Assembly: GCF_000060345.1 (NCBI RefSeq)
Contig: NC_008571.1
Location: 1,302,001 to 1,366,000 of the forward strand
DNA: 64,000 nt
Direction of reading: 5' to 3'
Source: Christiangramia forsetii KT0803
GTDB taxonomy: Bacteria; Bacteroidota; Bacteroidia; Flavobacteriales; Flavobacteriaceae
Below, one piece after another: positions 19,814 through 38,727 of the stretch. Under the pieces are notes generated by a model. The model did no database searches, was not told the DNA's origin, and saw only the letters and a list, made by a program, of their open reading frames with translations. Numbering within the stretch: the stretch's first letter is position 1; each line of letters starts with the position of its first letter. The position numbers and the translations under genes were made by a program.

Positions 19814-19857
19814 GTTACAATTGTTACTGTAGATTTTGATTCATAATTATAATTTCG
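19814..19857 (+). promoter_or_regulatory. Operator A plus -7 box, promoter of the TauE/rhodanese/methyltransferase operon
   Basis: GTTACAATTGTTAC (19814-19827) is a variant of the GTAAC-N4-GTTAC palindrome. The box TAATTTCG (19850-19857) is one base from TAnnTTTG. Palindrome centre to box end is 36.5 bases, the same as at the other sites. A second half-site, CATTTGTTAC, overlaps on the left. The predicted transcript would start about 15 bases before the ATG at 19878. Confidence 0.7.
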
Positions 19858-19877
19858 TCCAGAATAAAAATCTAGGA

Positions 19878-20693
19878 ATGGAATTACTTGAAATATTTGG
19901 TTATATAAGTTCTCTTATAATTGGGATCTCACTTGGATTAATTGGTGGAGGCGGGTCTATACTTGCGGTACCTGTTCTGGCATACTTATTTTCTATGGGG
20001 GAGCGTGTGGCGACAGCTTACTCCTTATTCATTGTAGGAGCCAGTGCACTCGTAGGTGGGATCAAACAACATTACAAAGGTTACGTAGACTGGAAAACCG
20101 CCATCATTTTTGGGATTCCAGCTGTTATAGGGGTCACTATCGTTAGACACTATGTGGTACCGGCGTTACCTGAATCCTTATTCTATATCCAAGATTTTGA
20201 GTTTACAAGAAGGATGGCCATGTTTGGTCTATTCGCTGTTCTTATGATACCAGCTGCTTTTTCTATGTTACGAAAAAAGGATTCTGGAAAAGAAAAAAAA
20301 TCCTCAAATGAAAGGAAGTATAATTATCCGTTAATTCTGGCAGAAGGTTTAATCGTTGGAGGGATTACTGGTATGATTGGTGCTGGAGGAGGCTTTCTAA
20401 TAATCCCTGCCCTGGTGATTTTAGCCAATATTGAAATGAAAACGGCTGTGGGAACTTCATTAATAATTATCGCATTTAAATCACTCCTGGGATTTTTCCT
20501 TGGGGATGCCATAACTATGGAGATAGACTGGACATTTTTGGGAATAATAACAGGTCTTTCCTTTTTGGGTATTTTCATAGGATCCTATCTAAGCAATTAT
20601 ATTAATGGAGAACGTCTTAAAAAAGGCTTTGGTTACTTTATCTTTCTAATGGCCGGATTTATTTTCTATATGGAATTCTTTGTTAAAAATTAG
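19878..20693 (+). CDS. TauE/SafE (TSUP) family membrane exporter, probable sulfite or sulfur-anion exporter
   Basis: A 271-residue membrane protein with about eight hydrophobic segments. Two related halves carry the family signature: GLIGGGGSILAVPVLAYLF near the N-terminus and GMIGAGGGFLIIPALVILAN in the second half, each followed by a TA..T..S or TAVGTSL stretch. A longer frame opens with TTG at 19836, but that codon lies upstream of the predicted transcription start, so the ATG at 19878 is preferred. TSUP proteins move sulfite, sulfonates or related anions. The neighbouring rhodanese and persulfide dioxygenase genes suggest export of sulfite or thiosulfate produced during sulfide or persulfide clearance, as in staphylococcal cst loci. 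Confidence 0.85.
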   Translation: MELLEIFGYISSLIIGISLGLIGGGGSILAVPVLAYLFSMGERVATAYSLFIVGASALVGGIKQHYKGYVDWKTAIIFGIPAVIGVTIVRHYVVPALPESLFYIQDFEFTRRMAMFGLFAVLMIPAAFSMLRKKDSGKEKKSSNERKYNYPLILAEGLIVGGITGMIGAGGGFLIIPALVILANIEMKTAVGTSLIIIAFKSLLGFFLGDAITMEIDWTFLGIITGLSFLGIFIGSYLSNYINGERLKKGFGYFIFLMAGFIFYMEFFVKN

Positions 20694-20715
20694 GTGCAAA
20701 TTAAAATTTACTATT

Positions 20716-21033
20716 ATGAAAAACTTAAATGCAAAAGAGTTTGCAGACAAAATTGAAAATGATAATAATGCTATTATTCTGGATGTGCGGACCCCAAAGG
20801 AATGGAAAGACGGAATAATACCTAATGCTAAATTGATCAACCTTTTTGAACCTGTAACTTTTCAACGAGAAGTCTCAAATTTAGAAAAAGACAGGAACTA
20901 TTATATCTACTGTCGTAGTGGAAATCGAAGTGGGCAGGCTTGTCAAATCATGGATACTAAAGGCTTTAATACGAACAACCTTGCCGGTGGTATTATGCAA
21001 TGGGACGAAAAATTATCCAAACCTGTTTTTTAA
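20716..21033 (+). CDS. Single-domain rhodanese (sulfurtransferase)
   Basis: A 105-residue cytoplasmic rhodanese. The catalytic loop reads YCRSGNRSGQ, with the active-site Cys near residue 66; the first signature DVRTPKEWKDG is near residue 20. It would carry sulfane sulfur on the Cys as a persulfide and pass it to an acceptor such as thiol or sulfite. The ATG at 20716 is chosen because it matches the usual N-terminal length; the frame itself opens upstream inside the previous gene. It lies 22 bases after the TauE gene and belongs to the same operon. Confidence 0.88.
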   Translation: MKNLNAKEFADKIENDNNAIILDVRTPKEWKDGIIPNAKLINLFEPVTFQREVSNLEKDRNYYIYCRSGNRSGQACQIMDTKGFNTNNLAGGIMQWDEKLSKPVF

Positions 21034-21048
21034 AATTTCAGTAGAGAT

Positions 21049-21654
21049 ATGAAAGATAAGTCAAAGGAATTTTGGGAAGAAAGGTATAGCGATGAAGAAT
21101 ACATATATGGTAAAGATCCAAATGTCTTTTTTCGAACTGAGCTAGGTAAATTGAATCCTAATTCCATTCTCTTACCTGCAGATGGAGAGGGTCGTAATGC
21201 CGTATTTGCCGCAAAAACTGGTTGGGATGTTACTGCATTTGATCTGAGTAAGGCTGGAAAGGCAAAAGCTATAGAACTGGCTGAGAGGAATGATGTGGAA
21301 ATAAATTATGAGGTCACTTCCGCACAGGAATTTGATAGCCATATCAAATTTGAGGTTATCGCACTTATTTATGCTCATTTTAATGCTGAAGACAGACCTG
21401 GTATACATAACCATTTATTACAATTTTTAAAACCAGGAGGAATTTTAATCTTCGAAGCATTTTCTAAAAAACAGCTTGATTATAATTCTGGAGGGCCTAA
21501 AGAACAAGCAATGTTATTTTCAAAAGAAGAGTTGAGAAATGAGTTTTCCGGACTTACAATTAAATATTTGGAAGAATTAGAAATAGAGCAAAACGAAGGA
21601 AAATATCACAAAGGTAAAAGTTGTGTACTACAAATGATAGGTGAAAAAAATTAA
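21049..21654 (+). CDS. SAM-dependent methyltransferase, TehB/thiopurine-methyltransferase-like
   Basis: A 201-residue class I methyltransferase. The N-terminal FWEERYSDEEYIYGKDPN segment is characteristic of the TehB-like group. The SAM loop is ILLPADGEGRNAVFAA near residues 41-56, followed by the acidic TAFDLSKAG, and a later LKPGGILIFEAFSKKQ strand. Members methylate tellurite, selenium or small thiols. In a sulfur operon, S-methylation of a sulfide or other soft nucleophile is possible, but this is inference. It starts 15 bases after the rhodanese gene and closes this operon. Confidence 0.82.
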   Translation: MKDKSKEFWEERYSDEEYIYGKDPNVFFRTELGKLNPNSILLPADGEGRNAVFAAKTGWDVTAFDLSKAGKAKAIELAERNDVEINYEVTSAQEFDSHIKFEVIALIYAHFNAEDRPGIHNHLLQFLKPGGILIFEAFSKKQLDYNSGGPKEQAMLFSKEELRNEFSGLTIKYLEELEIEQNEGKYHKGKSCVLQMIGEKN

Positions 21655-21675
21655 TGTTCTAAAAAAATTTGATTC

Positions 21676-21719
21676 GTAACATTTGTTACTGTGCGGATTA
21701 AAGATTTTTGGCAACTTTG
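21676..21719 (+). promoter_or_regulatory. Operator B plus -7 box, promoter of the persulfide dioxygenase gene
   Basis: The palindrome GTAACATTTGTTAC (21676-21689) has perfect 5-base arms. The box CAACTTTG (21712-21719) is one base from TAnnTTTG. Centre-to-box-end distance is 36.5 bases. No -33 TTTG is evident, as expected for an activator-dependent promoter. Confidence 0.78.
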
Positions 21720-21745
21720 GAATACAAACCTAAAAAATAATAGTT

Positions 21746-23086
21746 ATGAAGATAACACAATTTAAAGATGATGCCCTATCCCATTTTTCCTACGCTTTGC
21801 TAAGTGAAGGTCAAATGGCAGTTATAGATCCAAGTAGAAATCCTATTCCTTATTATAAATATGCCGAGGAGGAGAATGCAAAAATTGTAGCGGTTTTGGA
21901 AACTCATCCACACGCAGATTTTGTTAGTAGTCATCTTCAAATACACAAAGAGACAGGAGCTACTATTTATATAAGTGAAAAAGTTGGAGTATCCTACCCG
22001 CATCAGGCTTTCGATGAGGGAGACAGTATAGAGATTGGGAACACAAGCATTAAGCCAATATTTACTCCTGGACATTCCCCAGATAGCTTAACTTTTCATG
22101 CATTCCTTAATGATGAAAATGTTCTATTTACTGGAGACACTTTATTCATTGGTGATGTGGGTAGACCAGACTTAAGAGAAAAAGCAGGTAATACTAAAGC
22201 TAAACGTAAAGAGTTAGCGCAAATGATGTATTATTCAATTCAAAATAAATTTAATGAGCTTCCTGATGATACTAAGGTATATCCAGCCCATGGTGCCGGT
22301 TCATTATGTGGAAAGAATATGAGTGATGCCAATAGTAGTACTCTGGGTAATGAGCGTATGGGTAATTGGGCATTCAAAGAGCAAACCGAAGATGAATTTA
22401 TTGCAGAGATATTAAAAGACCAACCTTTTATACCATCATATTTTGGTTTTAATGTCGATTTAAATCGCAAGGGAGCTGAAAATGTTCAATCTGCTAAATT
22501 TAGAGTACCCCTTAAACTAAATGTGGAAAATATTGAAGATGAATTTCTTGTAGTTGATACCAGGAATGAGCAACTTTATAAGAAAGGCCATTTACCCTAT
22601 AGTATCAACATAATGGCACGAAGTGAAAGTGATAAATTTGAGACCTGGCTGGGAGCTATCATTGAGCCTGAAGAACAATTTTATTTAGTGTTGGAAAGTA
22701 TAGATAAGCTAGAGGAGATCCTAGAAAGGGTTGCTAAAATAGGTTATGAAAAACAATTGAAAGGAATTTTCACTTTATCTGAAGAGGTTTCAGGTTCCTC
22801 AGAGAAATTTGATATACAATCTTTTGATAAAAATAAGGAAGATTATACGATCGTGGATATTCGGAATACTAGTGAAGTTTCAGAAGGAAAGATTTTTGAA
22901 AATGCATACCACATTCCTTTAAATGATCTGCGTAATAATATAGGTGATCTTCCAAAAGATAAACCTATGGTGGTTCACTGTGCCGGAGGATATCGTAGTG
23001 CTGCAGGCAGCAGTATACTGGAAAATGAAATTAATGAAGTTCCGGTTTTTGATTTGAGTGAGGATGTAAAAAAGTACTCCTCCTAA
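21746..23086 (+). CDS. CstB-like persulfide dioxygenase fused to two rhodanese domains
   Basis: A 446-residue protein. Residues about 1-245 form a metallo-beta-lactamase fold with metal ligands in ETHPHADFVSSH (H54, H56, D58), TPGHSPDS and FTGDTLF, and a later PAHGAG. A rhodanese-like domain without catalytic Cys covers about 260-345. An active rhodanese domain follows with VHCAGGYRS, catalytic Cys about 412. This order (dioxygenase, pseudo-rhodanese, rhodanese) and length match S. aureus CstB, which oxidises persulfides to sulfite and makes thiosulfate. The HADF form of the motif is usual in this subgroup. It stands alone between its own operator and a terminator. Confidence 0.9.
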   Translation: MKITQFKDDALSHFSYALLSEGQMAVIDPSRNPIPYYKYAEEENAKIVAVLETHPHADFVSSHLQIHKETGATIYISEKVGVSYPHQAFDEGDSIEIGNTSIKPIFTPGHSPDSLTFHAFLNDENVLFTGDTLFIGDVGRPDLREKAGNTKAKRKELAQMMYYSIQNKFNELPDDTKVYPAHGAGSLCGKNMSDANSSTLGNERMGNWAFKEQTEDEFIAEILKDQPFIPSYFGFNVDLNRKGAENVQSAKFRVPLKLNVENIEDEFLVVDTRNEQLYKKGHLPYSINIMARSESDKFETWLGAIIEPEEQFYLVLESIDKLEEILERVAKIGYEKQLKGIFTLSEEVSGSSEKFDIQSFDKNKEDYTIVDIRNTSEVSEGKIFENAYHIPLNDLRNNIGDLPKDKPMVVHCAGGYRSAAGSSILENEINEVPVFDLSEDVKKYSS

Positions 23087-23113
23087 AATTAACAACAATA
23101 TCCTATCATTTCT

Positions 23114-23148
23114 AACGGCCTTAGGTATTCCCAAGGCCGTTATTTTTT
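23114..23148 (+). terminator. Rho-independent terminator
   Basis: AACGGCCTT (23114-23122) and AAGGCCGTT (23133-23141) form a perfect 9-bp stem with a 10-base loop, followed by ATTTTTT. Confidence 0.9.
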
Positions 23149-23219
23149 ATGCTGGACCTTAATTAAAACTTGCAGGAAATTATAATTTTTTTGATTTAAA
23201 TCCAAAATTATATGTTCAT

Positions 23220-23263
23220 GTAACATTTGTTACTTGACGCACATTTTCAATTCAATATCTTCG
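23220..23263 (+). promoter_or_regulatory. Operator C plus -7 box, promoter of the split transporter and regulator operon
   Basis: GTAACATTTGTTAC (23220-23233) is identical to operators B and D. The box TATCTTCG (23256-23263) is one base from TAnnTTTG at the standard 36.5-base distance. Because the Crp/Fnr gene is in this operon, the regulator would control its own synthesis. Confidence 0.8.
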
Positions 23264-23281: not shown

Positions 23282-23839
23282 ATGGAATGGATTTATGAAC
23301 CATGGCCCTGGTATGTTTCAGGTCCCTTAATTGCTGCAACAATGTTCGTGTTGCTATATACCGGTAAGCAATTTGGAATGTCTTCTAATCTTCGCACGAT
23401 GTGTTCAGTTGGAGGAGCAGGCCAAGCTGCAGAATTTTTCAGGTTCGACTGGAAAAAAGAGAGATGGAATCTTATGGTGGTTTTGGGTGCTGTACTGGGT
23501 GGATTTTTTGCGTCTACTTATCTCTCAAATAATACAGTAGAAATAAATACGCAATTAGCAGATAAATTAAGTAACGAATACGGAATAAATAGTGCGGGAG
23601 AAGCTTATATGCCTCCCGAAATATTTGCAATGGAGAATCTTGGTGATCCTGTAGTGTTATTTGTACTAATAACTGGAGGTTTTATGGTAGGCTTCGGAGC
23701 AAGATATGCGGGTGGTTGTACTTCCGGTCATGCTATTTCCGGATTGAGCAACCTACAAATACCTTCATTAATTGCCGTCATTGGTTTCTTTATTGGCGGC
23801 CTTATAATGATACATTTATTCTACCCATTAATATTTTAA
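23282..23839 (+). CDS. YeeE/YedE-family transporter, first half (PmpA-like)
   Basis: A 185-residue membrane protein with about four to five hydrophobic segments. The family signature GARYAGGCTSGHAISG is present, with the conserved Cys near residue 146. YeeE/YedE proteins such as E. coli TsuA take up thiosulfate through conserved cysteines. Here the transporter is split into two genes that overlap functionally, as in PmpA/PmpB pairs found beside sulfur-responsive regulators. The ATG at 23282 is chosen; the longer frame from 23234 would begin upstream of the predicted transcript start. The next gene starts after one base. Confidence 0.87.
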   Translation: MEWIYEPWPWYVSGPLIAATMFVLLYTGKQFGMSSNLRTMCSVGGAGQAAEFFRFDWKKERWNLMVVLGAVLGGFFASTYLSNNTVEINTQLADKLSNEYGINSAGEAYMPPEIFAMENLGDPVVLFVLITGGFMVGFGARYAGGCTSGHAISGLSNLQIPSLIAVIGFFIGGLIMIHLFYPLIF

Positions 23840-23840
23840 A

Positions 23841-24257
23841 ATGATGAAATATATTACTTACATCCTGATTGGATTCTTTTTTGGAATAATTATGTACAAA
23901 TCTGAAGCAGCTTCCTGGTTTAGGATATACGAAATGTTTGAATTTGGTTCTTTCCATATGTATGGTATTATTGGATCAGCATTAATACTCGGAATACTGG
24001 GAGTGCAATTCATTAAAAGAAATAATATTAAAGCTATGGGAGGCGGAGAAATGCAATTAAAACCTAAAAATAAGAGTGTGCCACGCTATTTGATTGGTGG
24101 TATCATTTTCGGATTAGGTTGGGCTTTGGCCGGCGCCTGTCCTGGCCCCATGTATGTACTTGCCGGATCTGGATATATATCGATTTTAATTGTCATTGCA
24201 GCTGCATTACTAGGTACGTTTATGTATGGTCTGCTTCGGAATAGGCTTCCTCATTAA
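23841..24257 (+). CDS. YeeE/YedE-family transporter, second half (PmpB-like, DUF6691)
   Basis: A 138-residue membrane protein with about four hydrophobic segments. The signature GLGWALAGACPGPMYVLAG, with Cys near residue 100, is that of the C-terminal YeeE/YedE half. Together with the preceding gene it should form one sulfur-compound channel whose two conserved cysteines face the same path. It is one base from the upstream gene and 14 bases from the regulator gene, so all three are one transcript. Confidence 0.87.
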   Translation: MMKYITYILIGFFFGIIMYKSEAASWFRIYEMFEFGSFHMYGIIGSALILGILGVQFIKRNNIKAMGGGEMQLKPKNKSVPRYLIGGIIFGLGWALAGACPGPMYVLAGSGYISILIVIAAALLGTFMYGLLRNRLPH

Positions 24258-24271: not shown

Positions 24272-24904
24272 ATGAAAGAAAAACTGTATGATGCTTATTC
24301 CTTTATTTTTGAAGAGGAATTGTTGAATGAAATTTTTGAAGTAGGGACAAATAAATTTATACCTGCAGGAGAAACTATTCTAAACGTTGAAGAATATGTT
24401 ACCTCCATCCCTTTATTATTAGACGGAGCTATAAAAATTTCCCGTGTTGATAATGATGGGGATGAATTATTACTCTATTTTCTTGAACGAGGAGATACCT
24501 GTGCAGTCACTCTCACCTGTTGTCTGGAAAGAAGTAAAAGTGAAATAAAAGCAGTTACTGAGAAGGAAACCAGATTAGTTATGATTCCTGTTGAAAAAAT
24601 GGAGGAATGGATTATAAAGTATAAATCCTGGCGGACATTTATTTTTCAAAGTTATAATTTAAGACTTAAGGAAATGTTGGATGCTATAGATTCAGTAGCA
24701 TTCTTTAGGATGGATAAAAGATTATTGCAGTACCTCCAGGATAAGGCTAAGATCAATCAAAATGAAACCTTACAAGTAACTCATCAGGAGATCGCTTACG
24801 ATCTTCATACTTCTCGAGTGGTGATTTCAAGACTGCTTAAAACCCTAGAAATGGATGGCAAAATTTCATTACGTAGAAACAGTTTAGTGGTACTAGATTT
24901 ATAA
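24272..24904 (+). CDS. Crp/Fnr-family transcription regulator
   Basis: A 210-residue regulator. An N-terminal cyclic-nucleotide-binding-like beta barrel (about 10-120) is followed by a dimer helix and a C-terminal winged helix-turn-helix with VTHQEIAYDLHTSRVVISRL (about 165-184). Three cysteines, near residues 77, 83 and 84 in DTCAVTLTCC, sit in the sensor domain where other family members bind their ligand. The Arg/Ser pattern of cAMP binding is not seen, so a thiol or persulfide signal is possible. It is the natural candidate for binding the seven GTAAC-N4-GTTAC palindromes. A family member bound about 41 bases upstream of transcription starts would be a class II activator. Confidence 0.9.
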   Translation: MKEKLYDAYSFIFEEELLNEIFEVGTNKFIPAGETILNVEEYVTSIPLLLDGAIKISRVDNDGDELLLYFLERGDTCAVTLTCCLERSKSEIKAVTEKETRLVMIPVEKMEEWIIKYKSWRTFIFQSYNLRLKEMLDAIDSVAFFRMDKRLLQYLQDKAKINQNETLQVTHQEIAYDLHTSRVVISRLLKTLEMDGKISLRRNSLVVLDL

Positions 24905-24919: not shown

Positions 24920-24963
24920 GTAACATTTGTTACCTTTTAAATCCAAAGCAATTTGTAAGTTTG
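24920..24963 (+). promoter_or_regulatory. Operator D plus -7 box, promoter of the long DoxX/DsrE/SoxB-like operon
   Basis: GTAACATTTGTTAC (24920-24933) and an exact TAnnTTTG box, TAAGTTTG (24956-24963), at the standard 36.5-base distance. The ATG of the first gene is only 6 bases after the box, so the transcript is predicted to be leaderless or nearly so. Confidence 0.82.
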
Positions 24964-24968: not shown

Positions 24969-25328
24969 ATGAGTACAAAAGCTCTCATATCATTATTTCT
25001 GATCCCTCTATTTTTAGGGAAGTTATTGATTGTAGATGCAAGTCTTATCAACCTGCTGTCCATGGGGACAATTTCTTTGGTAAATCCTTACTGCGAAAAA
25101 AAAGATTTGAATTCGGATCAAGAGAAGACGTATGAGTTCGTTCAAAATGTAGAAAACCAGAATCTGATGATTGAAGTAAGCAGTTTTTGTACTCCCCAAT
25201 TCAATTTTAATATTTTTTCTTGGACGCCTAGTTTAGCGGAGGTTTTCCTCGAGAAAAATACCATTTATTCTTCAAAATTAAGCTATCTGTATCTGGATAG
25301 TCATTCACCACCTCCAAAGTTAGTGTAG
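24969..25328 (+). CDS. Small exported or membrane protein of unknown function, first gene of the sulfur operon
   Basis: A 119-residue protein with a hydrophobic N-terminus (ALISLFLIPLFLGKLLIVDA) that looks like a signal peptide or anchor, a conserved-looking LVNPYCEKK motif and a proline-rich end (HSPPPKLV). It is clearly paralogous to the gene at 38736, which has the same start type, NPFCERK motif and PPPK ending and also precedes a DoxX-DsrE pair. The function is unknown. The ATG at 24969 fits the promoter; the longer frame from 24927 begins inside the operator/promoter region. Confidence 0.65.
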   Translation: MSTKALISLFLIPLFLGKLLIVDASLINLLSMGTISLVNPYCEKKDLNSDQEKTYEFVQNVENQNLMIEVSSFCTPQFNFNIFSWTPSLAEVFLEKNTIYSSKLSYLYLDSHSPPPKLV

Positions 25329-25401: not shown

Positions 25402-25806
25402 ATGACGAACAAAATTTTTATAAGTCGTCGTTCCATTCAGTTATTACGAATATTGGTTAGTGGCATTTTTCTGGTGGCAGGCAGCAATCATCTGCTCAAC
25501 ACTGAGAAAACGGTCCGCCGGCTTGAACAGGCCAGCTTCAAGGGTATCGCTTACTTTTTTGGCGAACCAGAATGGCTTGTAATTCTTTCCGGAATCGTAA
25601 TGCTGGCAGCAGGTTTCTTATTCCTTATTGGATATAGGACGCGATGGGCGGCAATAGTATTAATACTTGTATTACTACCCATAACCCTATCGGTACAGGT
25701 AGGACAAATAAACACACTGGGGCCTCTTTTTAAAAACATAGCAATACTGGGTGGCCTTCTGTTTTTTATAATAAATGATACAGATAAACTTTTTAAAACG
25801 AAATAA
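25402..25806 (+). CDS. DoxX-family membrane protein
   Basis: A 134-residue membrane protein with about four hydrophobic segments. LLRILVSGIFLVAGSNHLL at the N-terminus and PLFKNIAILGGLLFFIIND at the C-terminus are typical of the DoxX/DoxD-like family. Relatives include the small subunit of archaeal thiosulfate:quinone oxidoreductase and membrane partners of sulfur-responsive proteins. With the DsrE-like gene one base downstream it may pass electrons or sulfur between periplasm and quinone pool; this is inference. A paralogue lies at 39164. Confidence 0.85.
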   Translation: MTNKIFISRRSIQLLRILVSGIFLVAGSNHLLNTEKTVRRLEQASFKGIAYFFGEPEWLVILSGIVMLAAGFLFLIGYRTRWAAIVLILVLLPITLSVQVGQINTLGPLFKNIAILGGLLFFIINDTDKLFKTK

Positions 25807-25807: not shown

Positions 25808-26224
25808 ATGAAAACGATATTTTTTAGCAGCATCTTACTGATGCTTACATTATTTGCAGGAACTGAGGTAAATGCACAGCAGGACATGAAACATAACTAT
25901 GTGGTACTCACAAAAAAAGTACCGCAGCTACAGCCCATACTTATTACGGCTGAAAATCTAAAAAAAGAAGATGGAGAACACTTTGGAAAATTTGAAGTGA
26001 TCATCTGTGGAAATGAAATAGGTGATATAACCGACCCTGCTAAAATAGAAGAATTTATAGCCAGAGCTGAAAATCTGGGGGTTGAACTTGTAGCCTGTGG
26101 CTTTTCGTTGAATAAGTTCAAGGTGAATAAAGAGACCGTCCCCAAGGAGATGAAAATTGTGGAGAACGGAATTCTGTACAATTTCCAACTTCAAAAAAAA
26201 GGATATAAAAGTTTAAGTCTCTAA
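25808..26224 (+). CDS. Secreted DsrE-family sulfur-carrier-like protein
   Basis: A 138-residue protein with a signal peptide (about 1-23, ending NAQQ) and a DsrE/DsrF-like fold. Two cysteines are placed like those of sulfur carriers: C67 in EVIICGNEI and C97 in LVACGFSLNKF. DsrE proteins accept and donate persulfide sulfur on such a Cys. Export to the periplasm is not typical of classical DsrE, which is cytoplasmic, so this would be a periplasmic sulfur carrier. It starts one base after the DoxX gene (ATG at 25808, preferred over the longer frame) and ends two bases before the SoxB-like gene. Confidence 0.83.
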   Translation: MKTIFFSSILLMLTLFAGTEVNAQQDMKHNYVVLTKKVPQLQPILITAENLKKEDGEHFGKFEVIICGNEIGDITDPAKIEEFIARAENLGVELVACGFSLNKFKVNKETVPKEMKIVENGILYNFQLQKKGYKSLSL

Positions 26225-26226: not shown

Positions 26227-27882
26227 ATGAAAAAATTCAGAAGTAAATTACTGATTACTTTTGGTTTAATAGGAACCTTTATTATTATCATATCCTTTAA
26301 AACCGAAAAAACCCATAAAAGCAGTAATCAAACGGTCAAGGACACCTTAAGTATTACGGTGTTACAAACAGCCGATATACACGGGCAATTGGATACTCAT
26401 CCTGAATTGTTCTGGGAAAATGAGAAAATTGTTTTTAAGAATAGAGGTGGCCTGGCCAATATAAAGACTCTTTTTGAAAGAGAACGTAAAATGAATCCGG
26501 GTAAAACACTTATCGTGGATGGGGGAGACCTTATTCAGGGAAGTGGTTATGCGGCTTTATCAGAAGGTAAAGCAATCCCCGATATTATTAAAAATATGGG
26601 CTATGATGTAATTATTCCGGGTAACTGGGAGGTGGTCTATGGCAAAAAAGTCATGTTGGATGTCATGAAAAACTATGATACAAAAGTTATTGCACATAAC
26701 ATGCATCACGAGGAAACCGGGAAGGATCTATTTCCTCCTTATTGGATAAAAGAAATCGAAGGTGTTAGAATTGGTTTTGTAGGACTTAACGATCCAGATG
26801 TTCCGGTAAGACAAAATCCCATCTTTAGTCAAGGGATTGAGTTTAGCGGAATGGATGAGAAATTTTCAAATACTCTTGAAAAATTAAAACAGGATAAAGA
26901 GGTAGATGTTCTTTTCCTTATAACTCATATTGGGATTTTTAAGCAGGTAGAACTTGCAAATAATCCATTGGCAGAGCCTGTAGATTATATTCTGGGGAAT
27001 GACACTCACGAGCGAGTTCAGGAACTCATTCAGGGTAAATATGCTAAGGTTACGGAGCCGGGAGCTTTCGGCTCTTTTGTGGGTAAACTACAGTTAAATT
27101 TTGTTGATAACAAGCTTGTCAGTGATTCGTACGAACTTATAGAAGTGGATCCTGAAAAATTTCCGGCAGATGAAAGGATACAATCTCTGGTGGATCAAGC
27201 AAAGGAACCTTACAGGGAACATCTGGAAACCGTAATAGGATACACTACTGAACCATTGTACAGGTACTTAACCGTTGAGAATCCTATGGATAATATGATA
27301 ACAGATGCAGCCAGGTGGAAAACCGGGGTAGATATAGCCATTTCCAATGGCTTCCGTTTCGGGAATCCCATCGTACCTGAAAACGGAGAGCCAGCTCCAA
27401 TTACCCGGGCAAATCTTTGGAATCTACTCCCCGTAAACGAAAAAGTAAAAACAGGGAAAGCTTCTGGTAAACAGATAAAAAACTGGCTGGAAACTGAAAT
27501 ACATAATGCTTTTTCACAGAATCCTACCGAACGTTTCGGAGGCTGGCTGGTAAGATTTTCAGGAATGAAGGTAGAATTTAATAGCCAGAACAATAAGGGA
27601 GAAAGAATTCAAACGATAACTGTTAATGGAGAACCAATTCAGGATGAAAAACTTTATACGATTTCGGCCTGTGTGAGACCGGGAGATCCATTGAATAATT
27701 TATGCCGAATGCCTAATGTAAAAGATGTTGAAATAATGGATTATACCATTCATGACGTGGTTGAGGAATACCTAAAGGAAAATTCCCCTGTTTCTCCTGG
27801 CTTGGAAGGAAGAGCTTACTGTGAATATTTAGGAAAATATTCTTTTTCCACGGTACCAGGTACAGAATATAAATTTAATTAA
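26227..27882 (+). CDS. SoxB-like metallophosphoesterase / 5'-nucleotidase-family protein
   Basis: A 551-residue protein with an N-terminal hydrophobic anchor or signal segment (about 7-24). The metallophosphoesterase half has TADIHGQL, VDGGDLIQGSGY, IPGNWEVVYG, THIG and GNDTHE motifs; the C-terminal 5'-nucleotidase domain follows. In ordinary 5'-nucleotidases the third motif is GNHD/GNHE. Here it is GNWE-VYG, which resembles the GHWEFTYG I remember for SoxB thiosulfohydrolase, the dimanganese enzyme that releases sulfate from SoxY-bound sulfur. No SoxYZ or SoxAX is present, so the carrier could be the DsrE protein two bases upstream. The substrate is unproven. Confidence 0.8.
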   Translation: MKKFRSKLLITFGLIGTFIIIISFKTEKTHKSSNQTVKDTLSITVLQTADIHGQLDTHPELFWENEKIVFKNRGGLANIKTLFERERKMNPGKTLIVDGGDLIQGSGYAALSEGKAIPDIIKNMGYDVIIPGNWEVVYGKKVMLDVMKNYDTKVIAHNMHHEETGKDLFPPYWIKEIEGVRIGFVGLNDPDVPVRQNPIFSQGIEFSGMDEKFSNTLEKLKQDKEVDVLFLITHIGIFKQVELANNPLAEPVDYILGNDTHERVQELIQGKYAKVTEPGAFGSFVGKLQLNFVDNKLVSDSYELIEVDPEKFPADERIQSLVDQAKEPYREHLETVIGYTTEPLYRYLTVENPMDNMITDAARWKTGVDIAISNGFRFGNPIVPENGEPAPITRANLWNLLPVNEKVKTGKASGKQIKNWLETEIHNAFSQNPTERFGGWLVRFSGMKVEFNSQNNKGERIQTITVNGEPIQDEKLYTISACVRPGDPLNNLCRMPNVKDVEIMDYTIHDVVEEYLKENSPVSPGLEGRAYCEYLGKYSFSTVPGTEYKFN

Positions 27883-30601: not shown

Positions 30602-30664
30602 AACTTTAAATATTGAACAACCTATTATATCCGTAAATATTGGATTCTTTAAAAAGTGAATAAC

Positions 30665-32138: not shown

Positions 32139-32906
32139 ATGACCTTTTCTTTTTTCTTTCACAAATCAACTTTTAATGAAGCGATATATCTTTTAATTTT
32201 TTTGAAATTTTGCTTATTCTCAAACCTTTTAGCTGCACAAGAAAATAAAGTTCATTTCAGTTCATGGAATAATATTAATTTAAATCTAGAACTAGAGAAG
32301 AATTTATCTCTAAAAAACGAAATTAAATTTCGTAGAACGAATTTTATAGAAACCTGGCAACAATTTCTTATCCGCCCAGCAATATTATATAGTATTAAGC
32401 CTGATATTCAGCTTGGGTTGGGAGTAACCTACAGTAAAAATTATCAATCATTTGAATTAGATATTCCTATAGATAATTCAGAGAAAAATATATGGCAGCA
32501 AATCCTATTTAAGCAGAGATTCGAAAATTTTATGATTTTTCACCGGTTTAGGTTGGAAGAACGGTTTAAGGAAAATATTATTGAAGATGGGGGAAGTCAT
32601 CAGGTGAAGGGGTATAATTACAAAAACCGCCTTAGATATCGGTTTACAATTAAAATCCCTGTGGGAAACAAAAAAATATTTGAATATATAGCATTGCGAT
32701 TTAAGGAAGAAATTTTGATGAATATCAATAAAAGTTTTGTTCCAAAAACTTTAGATGAAAACCGCCTGTTTCTGGGTTATGATATTCAAATATCCGAAAA
32801 AATGACTTTATCCTCCGGGTATTTGTACAGTTATAGTTTTGATAGTCTAAAAGATTCTCAAACTTCTAATAATATTTTAGAGACTACCCTGAAATTCACC
32901 TTATAA
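32139..32906 (+). CDS. DUF2490 outer-membrane beta-barrel protein
   Basis: A 255-residue protein with a signal peptide ending near LLAAQ and alternating beta-strand segments (VHFSSWNNINLNLELEKNLS, KNRLRYRFTIKIPVG, TLKFTL at the end). This is the pattern of DUF2490, a predicted outer-membrane barrel of unknown function frequent in Bacteroidota. As last gene of the operon it might be a channel for a sulfur compound or simply a structural protein. A short weak hairpin near 32925-32944 separates it from convergent genes. Confidence 0.72.
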   Translation: MTFSFFFHKSTFNEAIYLLIFLKFCLFSNLLAAQENKVHFSSWNNINLNLELEKNLSLKNEIKFRRTNFIETWQQFLIRPAILYSIKPDIQLGLGVTYSKNYQSFELDIPIDNSEKNIWQQILFKQRFENFMIFHRFRLEERFKENIIEDGGSHQVKGYNYKNRLRYRFTIKIPVGNKKIFEYIALRFKEEILMNINKSFVPKTLDENRLFLGYDIQISEKMTLSSGYLYSYSFDSLKDSQTSNNILETTLKFTL

Positions 32907-32952: not shown

Positions 32953-33483
32953 TTAAGGGATGAGTGCATAACCTTTCAATTGATAATGAGGCAATACAGT
33001 TAAAGCGGATAGTGCCATTTCAGTATATGCATTCATATCTTCTTTTTTTATCTTTCTTGAAGCCATGGCCTGGCCACAAACAAAAACTGTTACCCCGTTT
33101 TCTTTCAAAAGCTTCAATAATTCCATATTAGGGTTCTGTGTTTTAAATTGCTTTTTGTATTCTTCATGGGATAGGATAGCATAAGTCGCCTCTCCATGTA
33201 ATATTGCCACAATATCTATCTTTTCATTAGCTACATTTCCGGCTTTTAATAAATTGAGCGTTCGCGCGATTTTCCATAATCCTGCATTCACACCTTCTTT
33301 CTCTTTTTCACTATCAATATTAAAAATCATTTTATAAGTGAGGGAGGTATCCGGTAGTTCAGCGGTATCGTCAAAATATTTTATTTTTCCGTAGCCATCT
33401 ATAGTTGGTGTTTGCCATTCTTGAGCATTCATTTGAAAACTGATTGTAAGTATGAGTAAATATTTTAATAGATTTTTCATCAA
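32953..33483 (-). CDS. Secreted DsrE-family protein, longer form
   Basis: A 176-residue protein with a signal peptide (about 1-21, ending FQMNAQ). The mature part is DsrE/DsrF-like, with FNIDSEKEKEGVNAGLWKIA, IDIVAILHG and a single candidate sulfur-binding Cys in VTVFVCGQAMASRKI. It differs from the two shorter DsrE proteins in this region and is the third of the kind. It starts 20 bases after the phosphoesterase gene upstream on this strand and is driven by the leftward promoter of operator E. Confidence 0.78.
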   Translation of the reverse strand: MMKNLLKYLLILTISFQMNAQEWQTPTIDGYGKIKYFDDTAELPDTSLTYKMIFNIDSEKEKEGVNAGLWKIARTLNLLKAGNVANEKIDIVAILHGEATYAILSHEEYKKQFKTQNPNMELLKLLKENGVTVFVCGQAMASRKIKKEDMNAYTEMALSALTVLPHYQLKGYALIP

Positions 33484-33503: not shown

Positions 33504-35123
33504 TTATTTTATGATAGTAACTTCTCCCATATTTTTGGGAATATCGATTTTAGTCATCTTTCTGAATTCATCTATTATAAATTCAGTAAGGACAATATTA
33601 GTTTTCTGAATATTCGTCCCCTTGGCAAATTCAACATAATTATGAATTCCGTTCAACATACCGGAATGTGTGGACACCTTGTATATCTCGCTATCTACAA
33701 GAGACAGATTTTTAATTTTTATATCCATTACCCGTTCTCCTATTGGTTTAGATAAATCAATATGATAATGTATTCCTGACGACTGTAGGAGGCCTCCAAC
33801 TATCTCCATTTTATTCTTCGGCTTTAAATTCGTTGCAGTTTGTTCTAAAGTATTCTGAATCTGCGACCCAGTCAATTCAAGAGTAACAATCTTTGCAGGG
33901 TGAGGGAGAAGCTTGTAAATGTCTTCACTTGTTATATTTTCTTTTAGAGAAATACCATATCCAACTCCAGGAAGAAAAGCCACATCTGTATTATACTTTT
34001 CTCTCATCATATTAGTTACCACTCTGTCAAATGGGCTTTCAGATTTGTATTGTCTTCCTATCACTGTATCAGTTCGAGTAATATTTTCTTCCAGCTTCGT
34101 TAAATAAGCTGTTCGTAGTTTCTGAATCAATTGATCTGAATTCTGATCTGCGGTGTATTTATCATGCCATAAATAATGATATTGTGTATTGATACCCGTT
34201 AATTTTTTATTTGAAATAAGTAACTCGGTTTCTCCCAATACAGCTGCATCAGATAAAGCCTGAACTATGTAAGTCTGATTTATCTTTATAGGTGGTTCAA
34301 TAATATCATGACTGTGAGCTCCAATAATTAAATCTATCCCATTTATTTTTTCAGCAATAATTTTATCTACAGCCATACCTTCGTGAGAAAGTAAAATAAT
34401 GATATCGGCTTTTGATTTTAATTCGGAGAGATATTTTTCAATGGCTTCCAGGCCGCTGGTAAATTTCAGACCTTGGATATTTTTTGGATTTCCTGTTAAA
34501 GGAGTATTTCGATATCCTACTGGAAGGACTCCTATATTTAAGGCATCTCTATTAAACAATATGTAAGGTTCTTTAAAAATAGGATTACCTGTCTCCTGAT
34601 CTATTACATTTGCTGCAAGCATTGGGAAATTAGCCATTTTCTCTAACTCACGGGTTCTTTTCAGGCTGTAGTCAAAGTCATGATTTCCCAAAACCATCAG
34701 GTCATAATCCAATTCGTTCATGATACGAATCATCGCTTCACCTTTAGTCAAATTACCCAACTGGTCATCACTGAATGTATCCCCACCATCCAGCAGAATT
34801 ACATTTTGCGTCCCTTTTTCCTGTCTAATCGATTTTACGGCGGTTGTCATCCAAGCCATTCCCCCGATATCACCTATTTTATCAAACCTTGTGAGGTTGT
34901 CTATGGAATCGCCGGTTTGTGCCGTAGCGTTATCCAAAGTAGATTGAAAAGACATATAAGAGCCATGCATATCATTAGTATGCAATACTGAGATACGTTT
35001 GTTTATATCCGGCTTTTCAGCATTCATCGTACTTGTATCATTAGTTGTTTTACAACTATTAAAGAAAAGGGGAAATGATATTAATAGAAGAACAGATAAC
35101 TTAAGTTGTGACATTTTATTCAT
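33504..35123 (-). CDS. Bifunctional metallophosphatase/5'-nucleotidase lipoprotein
   Basis: A 539-residue lipoprotein; the lipobox region is PLFFNSCKTT. The catalytic domain has HTNDMHGSY, LDGGDTFSDD, LGNHDFDYS, LSHEGM and GAHSHDII. The GNHD motif is the canonical 5'-nucleotidase form, unlike the two SoxB-like copies in the neighbouring operon. The start at 35123 is chosen because the leftward -7 box ends at 35145, so the longer frame from 35147 would begin upstream of the transcript. It pairs with a DsrE gene downstream. Nucleotide hydrolysis and a sulfur-carrier role are both possible. Confidence 0.82.
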   Translation of the reverse strand: MNKMSQLKLSVLLLISFPLFFNSCKTTNDTSTMNAEKPDINKRISVLHTNDMHGSYMSFQSTLDNATAQTGDSIDNLTRFDKIGDIGGMAWMTTAVKSIRQEKGTQNVILLDGGDTFSDDQLGNLTKGEAMIRIMNELDYDLMVLGNHDFDYSLKRTRELEKMANFPMLAANVIDQETGNPIFKEPYILFNRDALNIGVLPVGYRNTPLTGNPKNIQGLKFTSGLEAIEKYLSELKSKADIIILLSHEGMAVDKIIAEKINGIDLIIGAHSHDIIEPPIKINQTYIVQALSDAAVLGETELLISNKKLTGINTQYHYLWHDKYTADQNSDQLIQKLRTAYLTKLEENITRTDTVIGRQYKSESPFDRVVTNMMREKYNTDVAFLPGVGYGISLKENITSEDIYKLLPHPAKIVTLELTGSQIQNTLEQTATNLKPKNKMEIVGGLLQSSGIHYHIDLSKPIGERVMDIKIKNLSLVDSEIYKVSTHSGMLNGIHNYVEFAKGTNIQKTNIVLTEFIIDEFRKMTKIDIPKNMGEVTIIK

Positions 35124-35144
35124 TTGAAATTTCCTTAAAACTAT

Positions 35145-35218
35145 CAAATATAAAACCTCTTTGACTAAACTTATGCAACATTTGTTACGTAGGTTTTTAA
35201 TGGTATACTATATGTTTG
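35145..35218. promoter_or_regulatory. Operator E with two divergent -7 boxes
   Basis: GCAACATTTGTTAC (35175-35188) lies between a leftward TATATTTG (35152-35145 on the minus strand) and a rightward TATGTTTG (35211-35218). Both boxes match TAnnTTTG exactly and both end 36.5 bases from the palindrome centre. One operator therefore appears to drive the phosphoesterase/DsrE pair leftward and the decayed cytochrome/porin pair rightward. Confidence 0.8.
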
Positions 35219-35272: not shown

Positions 35273-36303
35273 ATGAAGGATTTTAGATCTTTAATAAAAT
35301 CCATTGCTTATTTTTTTGTTCCTTAATTGTACTTATAGTTGTATTTTTCTCGGGCGTATTACTATTTGAATTTAATCCTTCTTTATTTGTTAAAACTGAA
35401 ATTTCTGCGAAAGACTGGAAACCCAAAGATACAGAAGCAGAATTAGCCTCAAGTTTTATGCCTTCGGATGTAAAATACGGCTATCAACTTATTGCAAAAT
35501 CACCGAAGTACATGGAGCCTATGGCCGAAGATCCTGATATGCGTTATGCAGGAAATAACCTGGCTTGTGTAAATTGCCATTTGAAAGCAGGTACACAGGT
35601 GGGAGCAGCATCATGGATAAGCGTTACGGATCGTTTTCCACAATTTCGGGGAAGATCAAATAGTGAAGGAACCATTGAAGACAGGATCAACGGCTGCATG
35701 CAACGTAGTATGGATGGGGATAAACGCCCTGTTTTATCTAGGGAAATGAAATCGATTGTAGCTTATATGGAATGGCTGGGTGAAGGTTTGCCAAAGGAAA
35801 GAGAAAAAGAATTTAAAGATTTTCCTAAAATTTCCATTCCTGAAGTTGCGGTTGATCTGGAAAAAGAAAAGCATTGTTTATTAAAGAATGTAGCGTTTGC
35901 CCTTGCGAAAATGGAAAGGGGCAACGATTAGCGAATTCGGCAGAAGGTTATCAATATCCTCCACTTTGGGGACCAGACAGTTATAATAATGGAGCAGGGA
36001 TGCATCGGGTAATCACCGCCGCCCAATTTATCAAGGGAAATATGCCATTCGGACAGGCAACATGGGATAATCCAAAATTAACCTATGAAGAGGCCTATCA
36101 TTTGGCTGGATATATCAACAGTTTTGAGCGGCCTGAGAAAAGAAGTTTAGAAAAAGATTACCCAGATCTAAAATTAAAACCAGTTTCAAACCCGTACGGC
36201 CCCTGGGCAGATCATTTCTCCGCCACTCAACATAAATATGGTCCATATCCACCTATTATGGATTATTACCAAAGGGAGTACGGAATAACAAAAAAACAAA
36301 TGA
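35273..36303 (+). pseudogene. Decayed TsdA-like di-haem cytochrome c (thiosulfate dehydrogenase type)
   Basis: The frame begins at ATG 35273 with an anchor-like segment, breaks in a T-run near 35311-35317, continues from about 35318, breaks again near 35866, and ends near 36303 after another shift. Haem 1 motif CVNCH (35566-35580) is intact. Haem 2 is CSVCP (35889-35903), so the axial His of CxxCH is lost. The order CVNCHLKAGTQVG, RINGCMQRSMDG, YPPLWGPDSYNNGAGMHR, IKGNMPFGQ, INSFERP is that of TsdA-type cytochromes, which join two thiosulfates to tetrathionate. Loss of the haem ligand and several indels indicate a dead gene. Sequencing errors in homopolymers could explain some shifts but not the haem change. 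Confidence 0.85.
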
Positions 36304-37654
36304 TTAGATTCCTTTTTTTCTTTTATTATTATAGCCTTATTCCTGACTCACAATTTGATTTTCCAGGAAGTTATAGAAGAAAAAAAGCGCAGTTTTCTCT
36401 CAGGTCAGTTACGATCCTATTATATGAACACCTTTAATAAAGGTTCTTTAAGGGATTATACAGCATTAGCCATAGGAGGAAAGTTAAAATATCAGTACAT
36501 CCCGAATGAAAATTTAGAGTTGGGAATTACGGTTTATAATTCTACAAATCTTGGAATACAGGATTTGACAATTCCTGATATGGAAATGCGAAAATTAAGT
36601 AGATATGAAGAAGGCCTTTTTAACCGGTTAAATTTAGATAATAAGGCAATATTTTTAATTGGCGAGCTCTATGCTAATTATAAAATTCAGCAGACGAATT
36701 TAGGCTGGGAAGAATGAAGATAAAATCCCCATAGGCAAACTCCAAAGATGGGAGAATGATACCAAGTATTTTTCAAGGGCTAGATTATCAATATAAAACC
36801 GGTAACACCACCCATTTCTAAGCAGGATTATTTAATGCGGTGGCGCTCAGGTCTACGGGGGAATTTTATGGGATTGGAGAAAGTATAGGTACGTATGCCG
36901 TGGGCAGGGACTGGAGTGGAAATCCGGCTCAATACGCCGGCAATACTGAATCAGATTTTCTTTTTATTGCTAATGCAAACTTTAAAATAACAGAAAACAC
37001 AAGTATTGAAACCAGGAATTACTTTGTAGAAAATGTATTTAACTCTTTCTATTTAAAGCCAAGAATCGATATAAATGAAAATGTTAATCTTGAAATGGAA
37101 TGGTTGCACCAGAACAAAATTGGTGAAGGCGGAAACCCGATAGATTCTTTGCGATATTTTAAAGCGAATTCATCAGATATTCTGGGAGCAAAAACAACAT
37201 ATATTTTAGCAGATAAATCTTCAATTTCCATGGGTTATGACAGGATTTTCCCTCATGGACAGTTTATTTTCCCACGGGAATGTGGAAGGGAATTTTTATT
37301 CAGTTTTCCGAAGAGGGAGCTTAGTGAAGGCTCTGCTCTGCAGACAATCATGCCTTAATTATGTATTCAGTAGATATTTTAAGGGATCATGGATCTACAA
37401 GTCAAACAATCCTTAGTATAGGCCATCAGTGGAAGCTATCTGTTCTGGATACTGAAGCAAACAAATATGCGGTACCTGATTATACCCAGATAAATCTTGA
37501 TTTATTTTTCTTAGTTAAGCAATTGAAAAACTTAAAACCGGAACTCTTGTTTGTGACCAAATTTGCAAATGGGGATTTTCCTAACAATCCTAATTTTTAC
37601 CTGAATAAAACAGATTTATTTCATGTAGATTTTATATTGAACTATAACTTTTAA
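36300..37654 (+). pseudogene. Decayed outer-membrane porin, OprD-like
   Basis: The start ATG at 36300 overlaps the end of the cytochrome gene. After one shift in a T-run the frame gives a signal segment (IIIALFLTHNLIFQ), then KRSFLSGQLRSYYMNTFN. Further pieces read LGWEE before a stop at 36714-36716, GRMIPSIFQGLDYQYKTGN before an in-frame TAA at 36819-36821, then AVALRSTGEFYGI onward, and a last frame from about 37361 ending in VDFILNYNF. The DGRMIPS and GYDRIFPHGQF-type wording fits the OprD/anion-selective porin group. At least three indels and two stops show that it is not functional. With the cytochrome it was a two-gene operon. Confidence 0.78.
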
Positions 37655-37720
37655 AACATCTACTGAATACAGAAATTAAACTTTCACAATACTTAAAATT
37701 TATTAAATCAGAGTAATAAT

Positions 37721-38188
37721 TCATAATTTCATTCCGGGCTGTTCAGCCTCGGATAAAATCCCCTTTAAGGTTTCAGTAATTTTTTTTGACAATTGGGTAA
37801 GTTCTTTAGAAGGAGACCAGGTGACACCGGTATCTTCAATGGAAACTTCTATATTTCCCTGTTCAACTTCTTTTACAGTTACAGAACAAGGCAGAAAAAT
37901 ACCGGTTTGTGGATCTTTTGAAATTGCACTGGAAGCCGTCTCCGGATTACAAACCGATAGTATAACCTGTGAGGGCATATCTTTTAAGTGGTCTTTTAAA
38001 TAATCTTTTAGGTTTAATTCAAAAAGAATATCAAATTCCCTTCTTTTTAATGCTCCCTTTACGTTATCTAAAATTTCAGCAAATGGCTGAGAACCATACC
38101 GCTGACTTATACAATAAGCGGTATGTTGACTTTCAGTATAATTCTGGTTTTTCATCCCTTTCTTTCTGGCTGGATTTTTTCTCTCCAT
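37721..38188 (-). CDS. DUF302 family protein, longer copy
   Basis: A 155-residue protein with a basic N-terminal extension (residues 1-35) before a DUF302 domain: FAEILDNVKGALKRREFDIL, VILSVCNPETASSAI and GIFLPCSVTVKEV. The family carries one Cys after ...GACNP and another in LPC; both are present. The function is unknown, though DUF302 proteins are common near sulfur-oxidation and c-type cytochrome genes. It follows the second DUF302 gene by 18 bases. The start could also be at the Met near 38155. Confidence 0.75.
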   Translation of the reverse strand: MERKNPARKKGMKNQNYTESQHTAYCISQRYGSQPFAEILDNVKGALKRREFDILFELNLKDYLKDHLKDMPSQVILSVCNPETASSAISKDPQTGIFLPCSVTVKEVEQGNIEVSIEDTGVTWSPSKELTQLSKKITETLKGILSEAEQPGMKL

Positions 38189-38206
38189 CTTTATATAATT
38201 GAAAAA

Positions 38207-38593
38207 TTATAGCCTGGCTATTACTTGCTTTAACTTATCTCCGATTTCTGTGGCGACCTGTTCCAAGTCTTTGTTTTTTACCGCCTGCATAGATGCCATT
38301 GGATTTACCGCAGCGACTTCAATTTTTCCATTTCCCATTTCCTGGACAATAACATTACAAGGTAACATGGTGCCAATCTTATCTTCTGCTTTCAATGCTT
38401 TGTGAGCATAAGGGGCATTGCAGGCTCCCAGAATACGATACTTTTTAAAATCGATATCCAGTTTTTTCTTAAGGGTTTCGGTGACATTTATTTCAGTTAG
38501 TACCCCAAAACCTTCCTTTTCCAGTTCATCTGTAACTTTTTCAATTACTTCTTCAAATTCTCCCGTAATAGTCTTGTTAAAATAATATTCCAT
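38207..38593 (-). CDS. DUF302 family protein
   Basis: A 128-residue cytoplasmic-looking protein that is nearly all DUF302 domain: EKVTDELEKEGFGVLTEINV, then YRILGACNAPYAHKAL and IGTMLPCNVIVQE, with conserved Cys in GACN and LPCN. The start at 38593 (MEYYFNK) is chosen over 38617 because the predicted transcript starts near 38611 and because family members begin with a short YYF strand. It is the first gene of a leftward two-gene operon behind operator F. Paired cysteines may bind sulfur or a metal; this is not proven. Confidence 0.85.
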   Translation of the reverse strand: MEYYFNKTITGEFEEVIEKVTDELEKEGFGVLTEINVTETLKKKLDIDFKKYRILGACNAPYAHKALKAEDKIGTMLPCNVIVQEMGNGKIEVAAVNPMASMQAVKNKDLEQVATEIGDKLKQVIARL

Positions 38594-38616
38594 AACTGAT
38601 ATTTTTTTATTCCTCA

Positions 38617-38660
38617 TAAAGATAAGAAGATATAAAAACTCTTAACGTAACGATTGTTAC
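38617..38660 (-). promoter_or_regulatory. Operator F plus -7 box, promoter of the DUF302 genes
   Basis: GTAACGATTGTTAC (38647-38660), with leftward box TATCTTTA (38624-38617), one base from TAnnTTTG, at the 36.5-base distance. It stands back to back with operator G, whose nearest end is 23 bases away. Confidence 0.75.
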
Positions 38661-38683
38661 ATAAAATTGAGGAATTTTCCAGT

Positions 38684-38727
38684 GTAACAAAGGTTACATG
38701 GAGTGGTATTTAATTCTCATACATTTG
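38684..38727 (+). promoter_or_regulatory. Operator G plus -7 box, promoter of the second small protein/DoxX/DsrE operon
   Basis: GTAACAAAGGTTAC (38684-38697) has perfect 5-base arms with a different centre. The box TACATTTG (38720-38727) matches TAnnTTTG exactly at 36.5 bases. The ATG follows the box by 8 bases, so the leader would be only a few bases long. Confidence 0.82.

Follow-up and report, generated by a model that had tools for sequence, protein, structure and literature searches.

Predicted operators and promoters at the locus

The stretch of DNA analysed here (the window) comprises 64,000 nucleotides of Christiangramia forsetii KT0803 (C1:1302001-1366000; the genome is one contig of 3,798,465 bases) and holds a gene for a Crp/Fnr-family regulator (24272-24904) among genes of sulfur-related families, several of which lie behind palindromes of the form GTAAC-N4-GTTAC facing promoter boxes of the TAnnTTTG type. 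A pattern scan recovered all seven palindromes that an earlier note on this DNA had reported (19814, 21676, 23220, 24920, 35175, 38647 and 38684), although the form given there is exact at only five of them (21676, 23220, 24920, 38647 and 38684), with one mismatch each at 19814 (GTTAC-N4-GTTAC) and 35175 (GCAAC-N4-GTTAC). The eight accompanying boxes (four exact, four with one mismatch) were found as described, and the distance from palindrome centre to last box base is 36.5 in 8/8 cases, corresponding to a spacer of 22 bases between palindrome and box in 8/8. Palindromes with at most two mismatches number 35 in the window against 18.6 expected, and 35 was reached in 0/100 shuffles. An eighth exact GTAAC-N4-GTTAC, absent from the earlier note, lies at 5040-5053 without a box at spacer 22 and is probably a chance match.

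The composite of palindrome and box (16 fixed bases) was scanned over the whole genome, as the earlier note had proposed, and returned 13 matches when no more than one mismatch was allowed, compared with 1 for the reversed pattern used as control. All 13 fall in three clusters (8 in the window, 3 at C1:1027190-1044076 and 2 at C1:1185761-1185871), so that two clusters have to be added to those of the earlier note; five composites have no mismatch, and two of these lie in the window. Site 19814 stands outside this set (two mismatches in total), and one member of it (21646-21689 of the window, minus strand) aims into the end of the methyltransferase gene and is probably incidental. Two further composites with two mismatches lie at C1:2389657 and 3683366.

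The second cluster contains a regulator paralog (L001:6548-7180), which shares 65% identity with the window copy and is followed by a site and a TauE gene, with cytochrome bd-type genes beyond TauE (L001:8558-10890; NCBIfam matches below cut-offs). Further sites lie ahead of an FA_hydroxylase gene in L002, itself followed by a gene for a metallo-beta-lactamase-fold and rhodanese fusion (MBL-rhodanese), and ahead of a second YeeE-type pair (L002:9094-10068). The Crp/Fnr gene that the earlier note singled out in the window is present, but with this paralog of the same type elsewhere in the genome the window copy need not be the sole binder, and the paralog very probably binds the sites as well. 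The third cluster (L003) is a second copy of the arrangement of DUF302 beside small protein, DoxX and DsrE at 38207-39990 of the window. Both copies hold back-to-back palindromes 37 bases apart between the divergent DUF302 and DoxX-type operons (38647-38697 of the window; C1:1185791-1185841 in L003).

Spacing and promoter geometry across relatives

A collection of 84,980 species was searched for orthologs of the regulator; among the matches listed, 83 were confirmed as relatives and 80 of these were kept. The 80 loci contain 156 exact palindromes, after which an exact box in the matching orientation stands 80 times at spacer 22, twice at 21 and 0-1 times at each of the remaining spacers between 5 and 44. 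If the box may differ at one base, 140 cases have spacer 22 and no other spacer exceeds 11. Random first-order resampling of this DNA gave one exact palindrome and zero boxes. In a family sample of 199 genomes (one per genus), exact matches with spacers of 12-32 allowed had spacer 22 in 124 cases, 21 in 9 and 23 in 6 among the 150 matches listed. One fixed operator-to-box distance, as expected of class II Crp/Fnr promoters, prevails in both sets. A sequence logo was built from 202 of 218 sites (duplicates, sites near locus ends and locus L028 left out), in which only spacer and flanks are informative because the sites were preselected for at most one mismatch: the spacer is nearly featureless (0.05-0.28 bit per position), and T directly precedes the palindrome in 79% of the 202 sites.

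In Flavobacterium psychrophilum the TAnnTTTG box was mapped at -12 to -5 (PMC9723704, available part). If the boxes here occupy the same place, the operator centre would fall at -41.5, a class II position, which agrees with the earlier note's placement near -42.

Two departures from the common arrangement were observed. At the Lutibacter loci L052, L059, L060 and L062-L064, an exact palindrome separates the regulator from the YeeE pair, and its box apparently sits near spacer 21. In an uncultured Tenacibaculum (L028:8548-9486), six composites stand in tandem, 144-215 bases apart, upstream of the regulator and without a gene behind each.

The regulator and its co-occurrence with the sites

The window regulator matches both Crp/Fnr domain models above cut-off (PF00027, 35.7 bits; PF13545, 35.3 bits), and its closest named relatives, among the matches listed, are from Christiangramia/Gramella (84-90% identical). 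An AlphaFold2 model (pLDDT 88.9, pTM 0.66; input alignment of 46 loci and the genome's own two proteins) matches the fold of CRP, NtcA and GlxR (Foldseek, VIA-align), with the domain arrangement unsettled given the pTM of 0.66 and a root mean square deviation near 14 in many full-chain matches. Residues were counted over 80 proteins (78 loci and the two of this genome; the short L015 and L065 left out). The recognition helix reads SRVV[IV]SR in 80/80, and Cys77 is present in 80/80, Cys83 in 63/80 and Cys84 in 67/80. The protein is neither CRP proper (no Glu in alignment columns 77-82 in 80/80; NCBIfam CRP model 52 bits, cut-off 266) nor FNR proper, as the window protein has no cysteines besides 77, 83 and 84 and the N-terminal 4Fe-4S set is missing. 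Instead, Cys77, usually with Cys83, replaces the cyclic AMP (cAMP) cassette, which suggests a sensor of sulfane sulfur. Lutibacter regulators carry Cys77, Ser83, Ala84 and Cys90 in place of the common pattern of three cysteines (CCC).

This genome encodes seven cNMP-domain proteins, of which only the two regulators have helix SRVV; another has helix STRAVVNR and is formally a possible binder.

Conservation of the sites ahead of orthologous genes, which the earlier note had named as support, was found at large scale: composites with at most one mismatch numbered 707 in the 199 family genomes against 59 for the reversed control. They also followed the regulator from genome to genome. At least one site was present in 107/108 genomes whose regulator homolog had E<1e-70, in 43/45 at 1e-50 to 1e-70, in 11/21 with a weaker homolog and in 3/25 with none, and hence in 150/153 genomes with a close regulator. 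At least two sites were present in 106, 30, 4 and 0 genomes of the same classes (136/153 vs 4/46, Fisher p 1.2e-24, a value that ignores relatedness). In two stretches that come from further families within the order (L147, L148), TauE-like and MBL-rhodanese-like genes lie behind exact sites (by eye). The cysteine pattern was considered as a simple marker of the sites and rejected: composites occur in 48/60 CCC loci vs 3/19 other readable loci, and several of the non-CCC loci keep the palindrome beside the YeeE pair, which looks like a clade difference and not like loss of the regulon.

Covariation of recognition helix and operator

In an order sample of 296 genomes, one genus (g128, 19 genomes) was at first counted against the link between regulator and sites, having 29 composites but no homolog at E<=1e-50. 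This counter-example was overturned, as all 19 genomes hold a sister homolog (36-40% identical to the main-clade regulator) together with altered operators. One half-site is GTGAC (GTAAC-N4-GTCAC or GTGAC-N4-GTTAC) in 26/29 composites, sites that share kinship and do not represent 26 independent events, vs 13 among the 150 matches listed in the family sample (hand counts). The helix of the sister proteins is SREV[IV]SR in 19/19 vs SRVV[IV]SR in 80/80 of the main clade, and the changed residue aligns with Glu181 of Escherichia coli CRP, a position tied to the matching operator base by Rodionov and co-workers (PMC1274295, available part). Cys77 and Cys83 are present in 19/19 sister proteins. Behind five of the 26 hybrid sites, inspected by eye, lie MBL-rhodanese-like (3), DUF983-like (1) and outer-membrane-efflux-like (1) genes, and a rhodanese-like frame begins 338 bases downstream of one exact g128 site (by eye). 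A symmetric GTGAC-N4-GTCAC with an exact box was sought in the 19 genomes and not found, although one such palindrome has a box with one mismatch. Loci L141-L145 show hybrid operators. In a tree of 100 regulators the 19 sister proteins separate from the remaining 81, with support that is low or unclear (0.27 after re-rooting); the tree is not relied on here. Together with co-occurrence, this covariation ties the regulator to the sites, as the earlier note had supposed, and it is the best link between protein and DNA.

Genes behind the sites

To characterize target genes apart from this genome, 41 exact composites in 37 stretches from other genera were examined. They were drawn from 43 exact matches listed outside this genome; the two left out adjoin regulators, and the 41 were chosen regardless of their genes, some of them also adjoining a regulator. 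As the reference proteins include genes first met behind sites, the names of the genes are a test, while the share that could be labelled is not. The commonest class was outer membrane efflux genes (11; one operon, when read, comprised OEP, HlyD-type and RND pump genes), followed by TauE (9), MBL-rhodanese (5), SulP (4) and the DoxX-operon small protein (3). Single sites preceded genes for an SQR-like protein, a rhodanese, a YgaP-type membrane domain, TlpA, a peroxiredoxin, a thioredoxin, DUF983 and the regulator, and at one site no gene could be labelled. Families with a direct tie to sulfur (TauE, MBL-rhodanese, SulP, SQR-like, rhodanese and YgaP-type) make up 21/41. Near regulators (140 sites, L028 left out), the most frequent genes were MBL-rhodanese (27), TauE (25), FA_hydroxylase (14), YeeE half 1 (12), DUF983 (11), YgaP-type (7), SQR-like (6, matching the type III SQR model below cut-off), TsdA-like (5) and rhodanese (5), and 6 sites had no labelled gene. 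The earlier note's statement that every gene following a site has a tie to sulfur, or is a partner of one that has, is about right for the window but too strong for the family, with RND efflux at 11/41.

The window genes are listed in Table 1. The MBL-rhodanese fusion at 21746-23086 matches the sulfur transferase/dioxygenase Blh model far under its cut-off. For each of the three SoxB-like proteins (26227-27882, 30656-32092 and 33504-35147), SoxB was the best NCBIfam model, with all scores well under the equivalog cut-off of TIGR04486, and they are perhaps a separate group of sulfur hydrolases. At 35458-37654, the cytochrome and the frames that follow it (outer-membrane-type by eye) are split into several overlapping frames, resembling pseudogenes or sequencing errors, with operator and box intact upstream. 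The RND pump at 40777-45177 may share a transcript with the genes upstream, a predicted operon membership.

Table 1. Predicted operators, promoter boxes and genes in the window (coordinates relative to its first base)
Feature	Position	Strand	Details
Operator, one mismatch	19814..19827	+	box 19850-19857, TAATTTCG, one mismatch
TauE/SafE sulfite-exporter family, first gene behind operator 19814	19878..20693	+	PF01925, E 1e-41
Rhodanese	20716..21033	+	PF00581
Methyltransferase (Methyltransf_25; TehB-like)	21049..21654	+	profile match
Operator, exact	21676..21689	+	box 21712-21719, CAACTTTG, one mismatch
Metallo-beta-lactamase-fold and rhodanese fusion, persulfide-dioxygenase type	21746..23086	+	PF00753 and PF00581
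Operator, exact	23220..23233	+	box 23256-23263, TATCTTCG, one mismatch
YeeE/YedE (Sulf_transp) half 1	23282..23839	+	PF04143
YeeE/YedE-like half 2 (DUF6691/Sulf_transp)	23841..24257	+	profile match
Crp/Fnr-family regulator, helix SRVVISR, Cys77/83/84	24272..24904	+	PF00027, PF13545
Operator, exact	24920..24933	+	box 24956-24963, TAAGTTTG, exact
Small protein, first gene of DoxX/SoxB-like operon	24969..25328	+	no Pfam match; proteins of 34-39% identity follow operators in three other genera
DoxX family	25402..25806	+	PF07681
Small protein, DsrE-like, resembles 39568-39990 by eye	25808..26224	+	no Pfam match; other copy weak DsrE
SoxB-like/5'-nucleotidase family	26227..27882	+	TIGR04486, 261 bits (cut-off 550)
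TlpA/ResA-type thioredoxin	27891..28523	+	profile match
DsbD-type thiol:disulfide interchange protein	28547..30601	+	profile match
SoxB-like/5'-nucleotidase family	30656..32092	+	TIGR04486, 320 bits (cut-off 550)
DUF2490 protein	32139..32906	+	profile match
DsrE/DsrF-like protein	32953..33483	-	PF02635
SoxB-like/5'-nucleotidase family, behind minus-strand promoter of operator 35175	33504..35147	-	TIGR04486, 270 bits (cut-off 550)
Minus-strand box of operator 35175	35145-35152	-	TATATTTG, exact
Operator, one mismatch, divergent promoters	35175..35188	.	box 35211-35218 (+), TATGTTTG, exact
SoxA/TsdA-type cytochrome c in two frames (35458-35931, 35874-36437)	35458..36437	+	PF21342 in first part; second without family
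DUF302 protein	37721..38188	-	profile match
DUF302 protein behind operator 38647	38207..38617	-	PF03625
Operator, exact	38647..38660	-	box 38617-38624 (-), TATCTTTA, one mismatch
Operator, exact, 37 bases from 38647	38684..38697	+	box 38720-38727, TACATTTG, exact
Small protein	38736..39098	+	no Pfam match; 47% identical to protein behind paired operators of L003
DoxX family	39155..39565	+	profile match
DsrE-like protein, weak	39568..39990	+	PF02635, E 3e-4, just under cut-off
RND efflux pump (ACR_tran) fused to outer membrane efflux domain	40777..45177	+	profile match

Proposed mechanism and alternative explanations

From the computed sites, spacing, conservation, target families, co-occurrence and covariation, we infer binding, activation over repression, start sites and signal as follows. 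With good confidence, the sites are read as operators at which the Crp/Fnr activator 24272-24904 would switch on sulfur genes from a class II position with fixed geometry. A regulator dimer would bind GTAAC-N4-GTTAC centred at -41.5 and touch RNA polymerase at a TAnnTTTG promoter with at most a weak -33 element. Genes for the oxidation, transport or export of sulfide, persulfide, sulfite and thiosulfate would be turned on in this way, along with thiol-redox partners and some efflux pumps. The most likely signal would be sulfane sulfur that derives from sulfide; Cys77, in most members together with Cys83, would read it at the place of the cAMP cassette. Whether these proteins amount to a new class of sulfur sensor is an evenly balanced question: in that case, the Crp/Fnr cassette would have turned into a cysteine-based persulfide/sulfane-sulfur sensor (Cys77-x5-Cys83, often with Cys84), acting as class II activator of a sulfide-defence regulon found across the Flavobacteriaceae, with operator and helix co-evolving between two clades.

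Several observations weigh against this explanation or limit it. Cys83 is missing from 17/80 regulators and Cys84 from 13/80, and the two regulators of this genome share one helix. A composite with at most one mismatch was found in only 52/80 regulator loci, some of which are short or distant; composites were not seen in 3/4 Sphingobacterium loci nor in 2/2 Fluviicola loci, and in Lutibacter-type loci the operator precedes the YeeE pair but the box apparently sits at spacer 21 (by eye). When up to three mismatches are allowed, the composite shows no enrichment in this genome (51 matches vs 74 for the control), which implies that weak matches carry no meaning. Finally, a weak TG directly follows the palindrome (positions 14-15 from its start; T 48%, G 44% of 202 sites). 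The -33 element of TAnnTTTG promoters is TTG, and with the box at -12 to -5 this TG would fall at -34/-33, where that element would sit, the operator overlapping its first base; the TG is perhaps a remnant of the overlapped element. Promoters with no more than this weak TG would carry at most a weak -33 element, as expected for activated promoters.

It is possible, if rather unlikely, that the same regulator acts at the same sites in response to metal, oxygen/redox or nitric oxide, with the sulfur genes forming part of a wider redox response. Outer membrane efflux genes behind 11/41 exact sites, together with several thioredoxin, peroxiredoxin or unknown genes, would allow such a redox or metal signal; a heavy-metal-associated domain is also found behind sites, and the cysteines of the regulator could bind metal. 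Cytochrome bd, which likewise occurs behind sites, is relatively sulfide-resistant, so that its presence there also fits a response to sulfide. Set against a non-sulfur signal are the sulfur genes behind 21/41 exact sites and behind most of the 140 sites near regulators.

Repression by the regulator, with release by the signal in the manner of BigR, SqrR and CstR, is improbable. A repressor role at persulfide and sulfide genes is described for CstR and BigR (PMC9774590, available part). However, repressors tolerate many operator positions, whereas a single one, which would be centred at -41.5, was found across the family, with only the weak TG at -34/-33.

Still less probable is that the sites belong to HcpR, a regulator of nitrosative stress. 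The published consensus of HcpR2, GTAACnnnnGTTAC, is the same palindrome, and HcpR2 is also a Crp/Fnr-family protein without FNR-type Fe-S cysteines; its regulon consists of hcp and redox enzymes for nitric oxide, and it has Pro at position 181 (PMC1274295, available part), where Val183 of the regulator lies and Val is found in 80/80 regulators. HcpR was rejected as the binder in this genome, which has no match to Hcp (PF03063) and in which helix SRVV is confined to the two regulators; across the 199 genomes, moreover, the sites track the regulator. Chance matches in AT-rich DNA, to which the lack of enrichment at three or fewer mismatches might point, can be dismissed along with a local artefact for close matches, since these are strongly enriched in the window, the genome, the 80 loci and the 199 genomes.

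Significance and comparison with known systems

If a family-wide Crp/Fnr regulon of this kind exists, it would explain how a large bacterial group senses reduced sulfur. Several hundred predicted sites with exact geometry are now available (the 707 in 199 genomes, with 59 expected from the control), and the exact distance between site and promoter makes the flavobacterial sulfur response directly testable. The two clades offer a clean case of covariation between operator and recognition helix, and the sites provide a simple test of whether the TAnnTTTG promoters of Bacteroidota, which are unusual and for which, to our knowledge, few activators have been studied, respond to class II activation. 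Searches of the open-licence literature turned up no account of a Bacteroidota sulfur regulon under a Crp/Fnr-type protein.

Among solved structures, the best sequence match to the regulator is 3dv8, a Crp/Fnr protein of Eubacterium rectale (E 7.5e-25), which carries cysteines where Cys77 and Cys83 stand but has a different helix, SHREVITR. The regulator's helix resembles that of cyanobacterial NtcA (STRVTVTR, compared with TSRVVISR), a class II activator that senses 2-oxoglutarate and controls nitrogen genes, and the NtcA operator, GTA-N8-TAC, fits inside GTAAC-N4-GTTAC; sequence identity between the two proteins is about 21-24%. Regulators of sulfide and persulfide responses come mostly from the ArsR, CsoR, NtrC, MarR and OxyR families. 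BigR/SqrR (ArsR family), CstR (CsoR family) and FisR (NtrC family) use cysteine-based sensing to control persulfide dioxygenase, rhodanese, TauE, YeeE-type transporters and SQR, with BigR, SqrR and CstR acting as repressors. CstR, BigR and SqrR are treated among the persulfide- and sulfide-responsive regulators (PMC9774590, available part). BigR, SqrR, CstR and FisR belong to unrelated protein families, and in contrast to the three repressors the regulator described here looks like a class II activator. Its palindrome has been known since 2005 as the HcpR2 consensus (PMC1274295, available part), and its kind, the Crp/Fnr class II activator, is equally familiar; what seems new is the way in which sensor region, operator, regulon and lineage are combined.

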